NCBI GenBank assembly: GCA_016931615.1
Contig: JAFGEL010000062.1
Coordinates: 89,837 to 153,836, forward strand
DNA length: 64,000 bases
From: Desulfuromonadales bacterium
GTDB lineage: Bacteria > Desulfobacterota > Desulfuromonadia > Desulfuromonadales > Geopsychrobacteraceae
Direction: 5' to 3'
Part shown: piece after piece, positions 41,909-45,682 of the stretch
Layout: every line of letters begins with the position of its first letter
How positions within the stretch are numbered: position 1 is the stretch's first letter
Translations under genes and position numbers: made by a program
Notes under the pieces: generated by a model
Databases searched by the model: none
What the model was told of the DNA's origin: nothing
Seen by the model: only the letters and a program-made list of their open reading frames with translations

Positions 41909-41982
41909 CATTTCAAGCCGTTTAGCTTTATTGTTAAAGCCTAATATTAAGCCTAGACCGACGAGCTTTTCTGGTGAGAGTT

Positions 41983-44100
41983 ATGCTTGAACCCGGCGCA
42001 AAATTTGACCGTTATGAGATTGTTGAAGCGCTTCCAGTTCATAACGTTTATCAGAGTTATCTTGTTCATGGCGCTGGTGACGGGGCTGTAAAACTGTTGG
42101 TGTTTGAGCGGGAAAACCTGTTTCAGACAATCAGCCGTCGGCAGTTTATTGAGCAGGCCCAGTGGTTATCAAGCCAGGATTTTCCCGGGGTAGGGCTTCC
42201 TCTGGACACGGGTGAGTATGAAGAACAGCTCTATTGCCTGTTCCCTTGCGTGCCCGGGGCTACCCTCGCTGTAAAATTTGACCAGTTTCAGACTGTCCGG
42301 CATGCTGTTGAACTGCTCAAAAATATTACTGAATCTTTGATAGCTCCCCATGCTGCCGGACTTGTACACGGCAACCTCTCCCCGGAGACTATCAGCCTCG
42401 TCGACGCGAAGCCTTTCCTGGCAGATTTTGCCCTGTCACGGCTGGTCAAGCTGGATTACCAGTCGGGTGTTGATGCACATTACACCAGCCCCGAGCAGGT
42501 CAGGGGTGATGCTGTTGCCTCCCCGGCTGATATATATAGCCTGGGATGCGTATTTTACCGGCTGCTGACCGCCACACCTCCTTACTGTGGGGATGGTCCA
42601 TTTGCTGTTGCTCTGCAGCACGTTCAGGGTGATTTTCCTGCTCTTCCGAATGCCCTGTCAATCTGCCGACCTCTCCTGGAGGCGATGACAAAGACCTCTC
42701 CCGGGGAACGGATTTCCGCTGCGGTATTGCACCGGGAATGTGAACAATTGCTCGCCAAAGAATCCCTCGACATACCGACAGCTGGACCGGAAATGGCCTC
42801 GGATGGCGATGACCAGGTAACGCAATGCCGGCCGGCGGATTCGGCCTCTGTGACAGATGGAGATCTGGCAACGCGCATCGAAGCCCGGCTTAAAGAACAC
42901 GTTTCTAACCTGAACGAACCCGTTCTCAGTGGTGCGGATGATGTTCCCCTTACGGATGCGACTGAAGAACTGGAACATATTTATTCCAGAGAGGATTCTC
43001 CTGTTTGGCGCTATCTGCTGATCCTGCTGGTCGGAATCGCCATCGGTTCGGGGGGTTATTTTCTGTTTTTAAACCAACCTGCTCCCGAAAAACTTGAAAG
43101 TCCGCCGAAAAACCCAAGGGATATTTCAGCAGACCTCGATCAGGCCCTGCTTTCCTGGCAGAATTCGGCTCATCCCGAGGCCGTAAATCTACTCATGAGC
43201 CTGGTCAGTGAATTTCCCGAAGATCCCCGGGCGTATAATAATCTGGCGGTTATATATGCCGCTCAAGGAGACTATGAACAGGCCCGTGATTACCTGGAAC
43301 GGGCTCTCTCGACAGATGCTGACTATGTGACTGTCTACAATAACCTCGGAGCGCTTTATGCCGAGATGGCCAGACATTCCTATGGTAAAGCCTTGCAACT
43401 GGACGAGGTGGGATCGTTGTTGACGCTTCAGGCTTTGTCGAGTCGGGGTGCGGTGCGCTTGACGGCTGCCGGTCAAGCAGAACCAGTGACCTCTCAAGAA
43501 AATGGGAGGGATGACGGAGTTGCCGAGGTGAGTTCCATTGAGACCCCGGCAGTTCGCGACGACGTCCAGTCTCCGGTGTCGGAGGCGATGGCTGTGGCGA
43601 AAGTTGATGCCCAGGAGAGCGCCGAAGTTGGTTCAGATGGTGCTGCCGCAGTCACCGAAATTCAAGAGGGCGAGGCAGCTCAGCCTGAGATTGCCGCTGT
43701 TGAGCCGATTGCGGAAGATGAACCCTCCGCAAATGTTCCTGATTCGGTTGAAAAAGAGAGTGCCGAAGATTTTATCCGGCGGTGGGCACAGGCTTGGTCG
43801 GATCAGGATGTTGTCGCATATCTGAGTTTCTATGACCCGGCGTTTGTTCCTTCTGGAGGTAAAACCAGAGCAGCATGGGAAGCCCAGCGCAAACAACGGA
43901 TCAGCAGGCCGCAGTCAATTGAAGTGTCACTGACTGACATTCGCCTGTCGGGACTGGGCGACGACAAAATTCGTATTGAGGCCGTGCAGCACTATAAAAG
44001 TGATCTCTACTCCGATCAGACCCGCAAAATTTTTGACCTGCAAGAGCATGGCGCCGGCTGGAGTATTCTCAGCGAACGGTCATTGGGGAGTCTCCGTTGA
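41983..44100 (+). CDS. Membrane pseudokinase with TPR and C-terminal NTF2-like domain
   Basis: A 705-residue protein. Residues 8-255 have the Ser/Thr kinase fold with AVKLL (Lys37) and YTSPEQ as the activation-loop APE motif, then PADIYSLGCVFYRLLT. The catalytic HRDLKxxN reads HGNLSPET (129-136), so the catalytic Asp, Lys and Asn are all changed, and DFG reads DFA (148-150). It is therefore very probably inactive as a kinase. A linker leads to one membrane helix (343-363), TPR repeats (about 390-475), an Ala/Glu-rich linker and an NTF2-like domain (594-705). This puts the kinase part in the cytoplasm and the rest outside. The ATG at 41983 follows GGTGAG. Its stop overlaps the TTG start of the next gene, so the two are translationally coupled. 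Confidence 0.82.
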   Translation: MLEPGAKFDRYEIVEALPVHNVYQSYLVHGAGDGAVKLLVFERENLFQTISRRQFIEQAQWLSSQDFPGVGLPLDTGEYEEQLYCLFPCVPGATLAVKFDQFQTVRHAVELLKNITESLIAPHAAGLVHGNLSPETISLVDAKPFLADFALSRLVKLDYQSGVDAHYTSPEQVRGDAVASPADIYSLGCVFYRLLTATPPYCGDGPFAVALQHVQGDFPALPNALSICRPLLEAMTKTSPGERISAAVLHRECEQLLAKESLDIPTAGPEMASDGDDQVTQCRPADSASVTDGDLATRIEARLKEHVSNLNEPVLSGADDVPLTDATEELEHIYSREDSPVWRYLLILLVGIAIGSGGYFLFLNQPAPEKLESPPKNPRDISADLDQALLSWQNSAHPEAVNLLMSLVSEFPEDPRAYNNLAVIYAAQGDYEQARDYLERALSTDADYVTVYNNLGALYAEMARHSYGKALQLDEVGSLLTLQALSSRGAVRLTAAGQAEPVTSQENGRDDGVAEVSSIETPAVRDDVQSPVSEAMAVAKVDAQESAEVGSDGAAAVTEIQEGEAAQPEIAAVEPIAEDEPSANVPDSVEKESAEDFIRRWAQAWSDQDVVAYLSFYDPAFVPSGGKTRAAWEAQRKQRISRPQSIEVSLTDIRLSGLGDDKIRIEAVQHYKSDLYSDQTRKIFDLQEHGAGWSILSERSLGSLR

Positions 44101-45449
44101 CGGCCCGGCGAATCACCATCTCCTTGTTTTTCATCACCCTGCTGGGTTTGACCGGGGCCAAAGTCGGGGCTCTCTGGTCACTGCAGTCCGAGGGTGAAAT
44201 CGTCACTCAACCGCACCCCTCATTGACCCTTCAGGAGAACAACCTGTCTCCGGTTTCTCCTGTCAGTGCTCAAAATCAGGCTATTCTCGATCGTCTCGAT
44301 CAGCGGCAGAAGCGGAATCCCGACGATCATGAAGCCAGTCTTCTCACGGGGCTTCTGCTCTTTCAGGGCGGTGATGTCGACGCCGCAATCAATGAACTGT
44401 CAGAGTTGGCACAACGTGCTCCTCAATTTAAGTTAGCCCATCTGATTCTTGGAGACCTGCTGATTGCCCGCTTTGATCAACTCAAGGTCATCGGTGGGAC
44501 CCTGGCGGAAACTCCGATGAACTCGGTACAACACCAACGCCTGTCGCAATTGCAGAGTGAAGCCCGCGTCCGCCTGCAGGGGTATTTGTCTTTGACGGAA
44601 GGGCAGATGATCCCGAGAAATCTCATGGCGCTGAGTTCACAGGTGAAGCATGCTCTGGTTGTCGATAAAAGTAAAAACAGGCTGTACGTTTATCGTAATG
44701 CAGGAACGGGACTGCCTCCGCAACCTGTGGATGACTTCTATATTGTTCTCGGCAAAAAAACCGGCGATAAGATGTATGAGGGGGATTTGAAAACACCCAA
44801 CGGAGTTTACTTTGTGACCAGTTATCTGCCGGACGAGAGGTTGCCGGCACTTTACGGCAGCGGGGCCTTTCCGGTGAACTATCCGAATGAACTTGATCGG
44901 CGGTTGACAAAAACAGGGGGCGGAATCTGGCTACACGGCACGGAAAAAACTCTTTACAGCCGACCGCCACTGGACAGTGAAGGCTGTGTCGTCCTGACGA
45001 ACGAAGAGTTCTCCCGGATTGCCCAATATGTTGAAACCGGGAAAACCCCGGTGATTATCAATGAGTCCGTTGATTGGATTTCAAGTCGCGAATGGCTCGA
45101 TGCGAATATAGAAGTGCAGTCTGCACTGGAAACTTGGCGGCAAAACTGGGAAAAAGCCAATTTGGATTCCTACCTGGACATGTATTCGCGAGATTTCTGG
45201 GCCAACGGTCATGACAACAGCAGCTGGAAGAAGTACAAAAAACAGGTTTTTGCCGGTAAAACCTATCAGAAAATTGATTTATCCGAACTGTCGTTACTGG
45301 CCTATCCGCGTCATGAAAAAGGTCCGTTGGTGGTGGCAAACTTCGTTCAGCACTACCGGTCCAACAATTTTAACGGAGACATGCAGAAACGTCTCTACCT
45401 CGTTAAAGAACAGAATCGCTGGAAAGTCCTTTATGAAGGGCAGCAGTAG
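44097..45449 (+). CDS. L,D-transpeptidase (YkuD) family protein, Csd6/Pgp2-like, with NTF2-like C terminus
   Basis: A 450-residue exported protein: N-terminal membrane anchor or signal (ITISLFFITLLGLTGAKVGA) and a helical region with TPR-like repeats (60-165). The YkuD domain (185-322) has the catalytic motif IWLHGTEKT, with 13 residues to SEGC, where Cys297 would be the nucleophile. An NTF2-like domain occupies 340-450. This layout resembles the peptidoglycan L,D-carboxypeptidases Csd6 and Pgp2 that shape helical cells, but the family also makes 3-3 cross-links, so which reaction applies is open. TTG 44097 overlaps the upstream stop, with GGGGAG six bases before it. The C-terminal domain resembles that of the pseudokinase. 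Confidence 0.85.
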   Translation: MTARRITISLFFITLLGLTGAKVGALWSLQSEGEIVTQPHPSLTLQENNLSPVSPVSAQNQAILDRLDQRQKRNPDDHEASLLTGLLLFQGGDVDAAINELSELAQRAPQFKLAHLILGDLLIARFDQLKVIGGTLAETPMNSVQHQRLSQLQSEARVRLQGYLSLTEGQMIPRNLMALSSQVKHALVVDKSKNRLYVYRNAGTGLPPQPVDDFYIVLGKKTGDKMYEGDLKTPNGVYFVTSYLPDERLPALYGSGAFPVNYPNELDRRLTKTGGGIWLHGTEKTLYSRPPLDSEGCVVLTNEEFSRIAQYVETGKTPVIINESVDWISSREWLDANIEVQSALETWRQNWEKANLDSYLDMYSRDFWANGHDNSSWKKYKKQVFAGKTYQKIDLSELSLLAYPRHEKGPLVVANFVQHYRSNNFNGDMQKRLYLVKEQNRWKVLYEGQQ

Positions 45450-45460
45450 GGTTTTTCCGA

Positions 45461-45682
45461 TCACCCTTCCAGAAAATCATTGAGCTCGTTCAGCAACTGC
45501 TCCAGATCCAACTGGTAGTGTTCGGCTACCTCTTCCAATTTGCTGAAAAGCATTTCGCAACAGATGCATTCCCCTGCCACATGGTCATATTTTTTCAGAA
45601 CGTTCTCAGTTCCTTCAAACGCAGTGAAAATGTCCAGGAGTGTCATATCAGCAAATATGCGCTGTATTGTGCCAGGTTTCAT
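45461..45682 (-). CDS. Small DUF1858-like protein
   Basis: A 73-residue protein with the DUF1858 outline: MTLLDIFTAF, then GTENVLKKYD, a Cys motif CICC (residues 39-42) and a C-terminal helix pair KLEEVAEHYQLDLEQLLNELN. In other members the Cys pair belongs to a domain linked to hybrid-cluster-like or sulfur-related proteins; the role of the stand-alone form is unknown. It is convergent with the L,D-transpeptidase-family gene, with only 11 bases between stops. Confidence 0.72.
   Translation of the reverse strand: MKPGTIQRIFADMTLLDIFTAFEGTENVLKKYDHVAGECICCEMLFSKLEEVAEHYQLDLEQLLNELNDFLEG

Follow-up and report, generated by a model that had tools for sequence, protein, structure and literature searches.

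The window, a stretch of 64,000 nt from a Desulfuromonadales bacterium, harbors two adjacent genes on the plus strand, here called gene A and gene B, whose coordinates and domains are compiled in Table 1. Gene A, for which an in-frame GTG at position 41974 would be a possible alternative start, encodes a kinase-fold domain that is followed by a single transmembrane (TM) helix, a TPR region, a disordered linker, and a C-terminal Cds6_C domain. Pfam recognized the kinase and Cds6_C parts with E-values of 4e-15 (Pkinase) and 3e-15, respectively, and also matched TPR, whereby the non-kinase domains were assigned by Pfam and sequence and the VIA and Foldseek matches listed for A were kinases. Gene B starts with an N-terminal anchor or signal (residues about 6–26, by hydropathy), which is followed by a TPR region, a YkuD domain (E-value of 3e-18), and a C-terminal Cds6_C domain (8e-32). 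The TTGA stop/start overlap of the two genes is preceded by a Shine-Dalgarno-like GGGGAG. Just after gene B, a small minus-strand ORF (45465–45680) resembles, by eye, a DUF1858-type domain. In a preliminary description of the locus, a kinase-fold protein with HGNLSPET and DFA, its TTGA coupling to a second gene, and an exported YkuD-domain product of the latter had been reported, and all three were confirmed, the last by the predicted N-terminal signal or anchor. Neither the TPRs nor the Cds6_C domain (PF24125, NTF2-like) had been mentioned there, and it is this domain, common to the C-termini of A and B, that is the main clue to the A–B pair.

Table 1. Features of the A–B locus in the window and related genes in other genomes.
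Feature	Position	Strand	Basis or remark
Gene A, pseudokinase-TM-TPR-Cds6_C, 705 aa	41983..44100	+	ATG 41983 to TGA 44100; ORF list, Pfam, model
Gene A, kinase-fold domain, residues 1–261	41983..42765	+	Pfam; predicted fold
Gene A, HGNLSPET, degenerate catalytic loop	42367..42390	+	
Gene A, DFA, degenerate DFG	42424..42432	+	
Gene A, single TM helix, residues about 341–364, predicted N-in/C-out	43003..43074	+	Hydropathy (about 343–364); model helix 341–362
Gene A, TPR region, residues ~379–470	43117..43392	+	Pfam; model
Gene A, Cds6_C NTF2-like domain, residues 596–698	43768..44076	+	Pfam; Y613, R636, K682, E698 at Pgp2 pocket positions
TTGA stop/start overlap A/B	44097..44100	+	
Gene B, signal/anchor-TPR-YkuD-Cds6_C, 450 aa	44097..45449	+	TTG 44097 to TAG 45449
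Gene B, YkuD catalytic domain, residues 186–321	44652..45059	+	His280, Gly281, Cys297 vs Pgp2 H157, G158, C174
Gene B, Cds6_C NTF2-like domain, residues 340–447	45114..45437	+	Y359, W368, K381, K431 vs Pgp2 Y233, F242, K257, K307
Third gene in genus g7	L110:9787-10566		Equivalents in L073, L077, L078, L081, L087, L089, L090, L099
Members of the second dead-kinase family	L195:4686-6662, L196:4857-6656, L197:4712-6649, L199:3818-5656, L200:4448-6358		

The kinase fold of gene A

In the kinase domain of gene A, HRDxxxxN is replaced by H129-G-N131-L-S-P-E-T136, whereby Thr136 takes the place of the catalytic-loop Asn, and D148-F-A150 is found in place of DFG. K37 is kept (AVKLL), the position of the aC Glu is occupied by Gln58, and a Gly-rich loop is absent. 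Throughout the family, HG[N/S/H/A/G] instead of HRD was found in 27 of 27 A-type kinase domains, a pattern that is not due to chance, and the Asp is always lost; most members have Gln or His where PknB has Glu59, and in some orthologues the DFG Asp is replaced by E, Q, or L and the beta3 lysine by E, R, or W. These motifs ruled out an active kinase for the family, HRDLKPEN and DFG being kept only in a 1232-aa paralogue in G095, and judging from its sequence, gene A would not carry out phosphotransfer. The C-lobe motifs SPE and DIYSLG (D-x-YSLG) are kept, and the fold is predicted with confidence (pLDDT mostly above 90), whereby the model matches PknA (4x3f) with a VIA Z of 29.6 and an rmsd of 2.2 over 254 residues and the best sequence match is PknB. 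The dN/dS of the kinase region is roughly 0.1–0.3, which is similar to the TPR and Cds6_C regions and, together with the fold confidence, ruled out a decaying pseudogene. Thus, given the kept C-lobe motifs, the confident fold, and the low dN/dS, the kinase domain is dead by motif yet functionally constrained, and the dead kinase of the preliminary description holds for the whole family.

Gene A shares its fold with PknA/PknB-type Ser/Thr kinases but has lost the catalytic motifs and carries an extracellular TPR-Cds6_C part instead of PASTA. No PASTA repeats were matched by Pfam in gene A, and NF033483 for PASTA kinases (PknB/Stk1) yielded 103.8 bits, which is below its cut-off of 450. GLW pseudokinases are, like gene A, proteobacterial and have a TM segment C-terminal to the dead kinase domain; however, they carry GLW for HRD and LLLL/W for the beta3 lysine, whereas the A family shows HG[NSHAG] and usually keeps the lysine (PMC12599244). 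With HGN and AVKLL, gene A does not fall into the GLW family. The dead Hanks domain of MviN from Mycobacterium tuberculosis is phosphorylated by PknB and recruits FhaA (PMC12599244). As proposed here for A, MviN/FhaA uses a membrane-linked dead Hanks kinase domain as a docking module in peptidoglycan control (PMC12599244), but the partner of A would be a periplasmic wall-trimming enzyme, and the gene A domain is the only Pkinase match (Pfam) in its own assembly, which is 89% complete and may therefore lack a further kinase. Further kinases occur in many relatives that carry the pair, and in several relatives one or more kinases give strong Pkinase matches.

A second family of proteins of 599–658 aa combines a kinase fold that is very degraded, even more so than that of A, with a TM segment and a C-terminal Cds6_C domain and has no adjoining YkuD gene; in one example, the catalytic loop reads EQGKLSLKDIFF in place of HRDLKPENI. 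At least 14 relatives, which include genera whose A is without kinase, have an open frame that matches both Pkinase and Cds6_C weakly, whereas no member was found in the genome of the window. Since this family occurs besides A, the arrangement with a dead kinase inside and an NTF2-like domain outside recurs in this bacterial family. L198:4874-6637 encodes beta-propeller-like repeats (NHL-type by eye) with Cds6_C at the end.

Gene B and its pairing with gene A

The best solved sequence matches of gene B are Bd1075 from Bdellovibrio (PDB 7o21; E-value of 9e-42), Csd6 from Helicobacter (4xzz), and Pgp2 from Campylobacter (6xj6), and the predicted structure ranks the same three proteins first (Foldseek 2e-27 for 7o21). 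DpaA is a far weaker fold match (Foldseek 6e-8), and no classic transpeptidase is among the best 50 fold matches. The DpaA/LdtF/YafK amidase equivalog NF040599 yielded 23.5 bits, with a cut-off of 365. Bd1075, Csd6, and Pgp2 are L,D-carboxypeptidases that set cell curvature (PMC4599014 for Csd6), whereby the NTF2 domain binds peptidoglycan, as in the pocket of Pgp2 (PMC8038945), or targets the enzyme, in Bd1075 to the outer curve (PMC8938487). A kinase is nowhere mentioned in the Bd1075 paper. Gene B has in common with these enzymes the order of YkuD and Cds6_C NTF2-like domain, as their type requires, the catalytic His (H280) and Cys (C297), and the Pgp2-type pocket (Y359, W368 for F242, K381, and K431). 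Among 28 diverse homologues most of the catalytic and pocket residues are invariant or nearly so, which includes Y/K/K of the pocket. Unlike the three enzymes, gene B has an extra N-terminal TPR region and a neighbor, gene A, with the same NTF2-like domain, and no such partner was found described for them. By analogy with these enzymes, carboxypeptidase activity is more probable for gene B than transpeptidase activity, and the label L,D-transpeptidase in the preliminary description probably names the wrong activity. Transpeptidase activity, as a YkuD domain may have, or DpaA-like amidase activity would be possible alternatives.

Gene A retains most of the residues that form the peptidoglycan-binding pocket of Pgp2. 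Y613, R636, K682, and E698 are invariant in 33 A sequences, and the aromatic position (W368/F242) is not kept, being V, I, T, or L. Since these pocket residues are retained, gene A probably also binds peptidoglycan, or it pairs with the NTF2-like domain of B. Dimers are frequent among NTF2-like domains. A comparable case is LpoA, the activator of PBP1A, which like A is a TPR protein and stimulates a wall enzyme in trans (PMC4111904); however, LpoA is an outer-membrane lipoprotein acting on PBP1A and has neither an NTF2 domain nor a kinase fold. In the literature on Cds6, on pseudokinases with transpeptidases, and on TPR partners of Csd6, no description of the A–B pair was found, in agreement with the preliminary description, which knew of no system with exactly such a pair.

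A gene A lies directly upstream of B in 113 of the 119 B loci examined, among which 11 genomes are counted twice across two collections. In the other six, B starts no more than 225 nt from a contig end, and the contig of G080, one of these cases, still carries the end of A. Adjacency was thus found in all of the ~104 distinct testable loci from Desulfuromonadales, Beta-, and Gammaproteobacteria, with exceptions at contig ends, whereby 80 named loci had been picked by similarity to B and more distant YkuD-Cds6_C proteins are under-represented. This conserved pairing ruled out a chance adjacency. Rare adjacency in relatives would have spoken against the preliminary description, but the two genes proved to be conserved neighbors. 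Most relatives from the family share an overlap of exactly 4 nt. Most Desulfuromonadales show a gap of −4 or −1 nt; elsewhere, values run from a few nt to overlaps by tens of nt, long overlaps being partly due to a mechanical choice of the longest ORF. Seven distant YkuD-Cds6_C proteins in five Desulfobacterota genomes have no A alongside; such proteins of other Desulfobacterota occur alone or in tandem and fall outside the clade of gene B with full support. The enzyme type can thus act alone.

The A proteins of Beta- and Gammaproteobacteria consist of TPR-Cds6_C, in many cases preceded by what looks like a signal peptide, and a kinase was present in none of the pairs seen. Neighboring genes in Betaproteobacteria (cysS-like and cyclophilin-like) gave no functional clue. 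In ~16 betaproteobacterial loci (e.g., L163:69-4358, L165:220-1620, and L180:106-1503) a gene for a Hanks-type kinase whose Gly-rich loop seems intact is located ~6 kb upstream of the kinase-less pair on the opposite strand, which probably represents shared synteny only. In genus g7, a third gene of ~260 aa with Lcl_C (PF07603) and Cds6_C follows directly after B, forming a three-gene Cds6_C cassette (Table 1).

Among the loci examined, a kinase domain in the pair partner is restricted to Desulfuromonadales. It is present in all 23 rows of one clade of the B tree (100/99), in G067/G068, whose genus is otherwise kinase-less, and in G095, which belongs to another family; it is absent in genus g2 and most of g4, where the pair is retained at the same syntenic locus. 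Among cultured strains, Malonomonas rubra DSM 5091 (L110) has the pair with kinase, and Aromatoleum evansii (L163) and Azonexus hydrophilus (L141) have the kinase-less pair. A is located between argC and queA whether the kinase is present or absent. A split of the kinase into a separate upstream gene was rejected, since the argC–A interval is 57–372 nt in the kinase-less loci where this was checked (L091, L093, L094, L096, and L097). Because the kinase is missing in the Beta-/Gammaproteobacterial pairs and in two genera of the family, it cannot be essential to the pair, and a kinase as its universal part was ruled out. In this respect the preliminary description, which had suggested that a dead kinase fold in the cytoplasm senses or scaffolds and controls the wall-modifying enzyme outside, needs revision: the constant partner is the TPR-Cds6_C protein. 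In the kinase-domain tree the pseudokinases of the family form one lineage, in which G067/G068 are sister to the other 25. This points to a domain that was gained once and later lost, most simply at least twice; as an alternative history, the domain may have been gained repeatedly or transferred. In G095, L098:5535-13704 contains a row of two kinase-TPR-Cds6_C genes, a YkuD-Cds6_C gene, and a 255-aa Cds6_C gene; one kinase protein has 1232 aa with HRDLKPEN and DFG, the other HQS. It is possible that the former is a less degraded form of A.

A proposed wall-trimming unit

Overall, the locus presents known parts in a new combination: a Csd6-type enzyme, a partner with the same NTF2-like domain, and a lineage-specific pseudokinase. 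We favor, with a probability of about 0.6, the reading in which A is an adaptor subunit dedicated to a wall-trimming enzyme of the Csd6 type, its cytoplasmic pseudokinase being a docking module specific to the lineage. A and B would then form a periplasmic unit of two subunits that trims peptidoglycan. B, exported or anchored, would most likely act as an L,D-carboxypeptidase that strips the terminal residue from tetrapeptide stems and thereby affects cell shape, and A would be its co-translated, non-enzymatic partner, whose periplasmic TPRs and NTF2-like domain may bind B and/or peptidoglycan and in this way position or tune the enzyme. The signal peptide of other lineages would be replaced in Desulfuromonadales by a TM helix plus a pseudokinase in the cytoplasm, and this pseudokinase, without phosphorylation, might be kept for docking a protein or binding a ligand and so tie the unit to a partner inside the cell. 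A contact between A and B, the carboxypeptidase activity, the topology, and a pseudokinase ligand are what we infer here. More tentatively, it is conceivable that the transmembrane pseudokinase reads a cytoplasmic state (a partner or ligand) and switches or positions the L,D-carboxypeptidase via its TPR-NTF2 part, such that trimming and shape would be controlled from inside without phosphorylation and several proteins of these bacteria with dead kinase, TM segment, and Cds6_C would constitute a family of such receptors.

It might also be, which we consider unlikely, that the kinase domain is a lineage-specific membrane anchor or fold relic and that only the periplasmic TPR-Cds6_C part works. 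The persistence of the pair without kinase in Beta-/Gammaproteobacteria, g2, and most of g4 would fit this, as would the variation of the HRD, DFG, and aC-Glu positions among members. However, purifying selection acts across the whole 260-aa domain, its kinase fold is predicted with high confidence, all 23 members of the strongly supported clade have retained it, and the second dead-kinase/TM/Cds6_C family occurs in at least 14 genomes; a folded domain of 260 aa would be superfluous for a mere anchor. It seems very improbable that the domain, instead of being a passive dock, binds nucleotide via K37 and D148 and acts as a switch that senses ATP/ADP, or that it is a transferase of another kind: although the window protein retains K37 and the DFA Asp, there is no Gly-rich loop, most of the family have Gln or His in place of the aC Glu, and both the DFG Asp and the lysine are replaced in some orthologues, making nucleotide binding unlikely as a shared property.

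YkuD domains are mostly transpeptidases, and Cds6_C proteins occur apart from YkuD as well, so that one could think of an ordinary operon of two envelope proteins, in which B would be an L,D-transpeptidase (for 3-3 crosslinks or lipoprotein attachment) unrelated to shape and A would have its own wall-binding role. We regard this as quite doubtful, since the best sequence and fold matches of B are carboxypeptidases and not classic transpeptidases or DpaA, and the fact that no testable locus in three large groups breaks the pairing speaks for a functional couple.

The adaptor reading thus provides, with a conserved partner that has the same wall-binding domain, a testable candidate for the placing or control of Csd6-type trimming enzymes. 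The partner gene spans Beta- and Gammaproteobacteria as well as Desulfuromonadales, and within one Desulfuromonadales family the presence and absence of the kinase offer natural comparisons. In that lineage, the pseudokinase may form a link between the cytoplasm and the editing of the wall outside.
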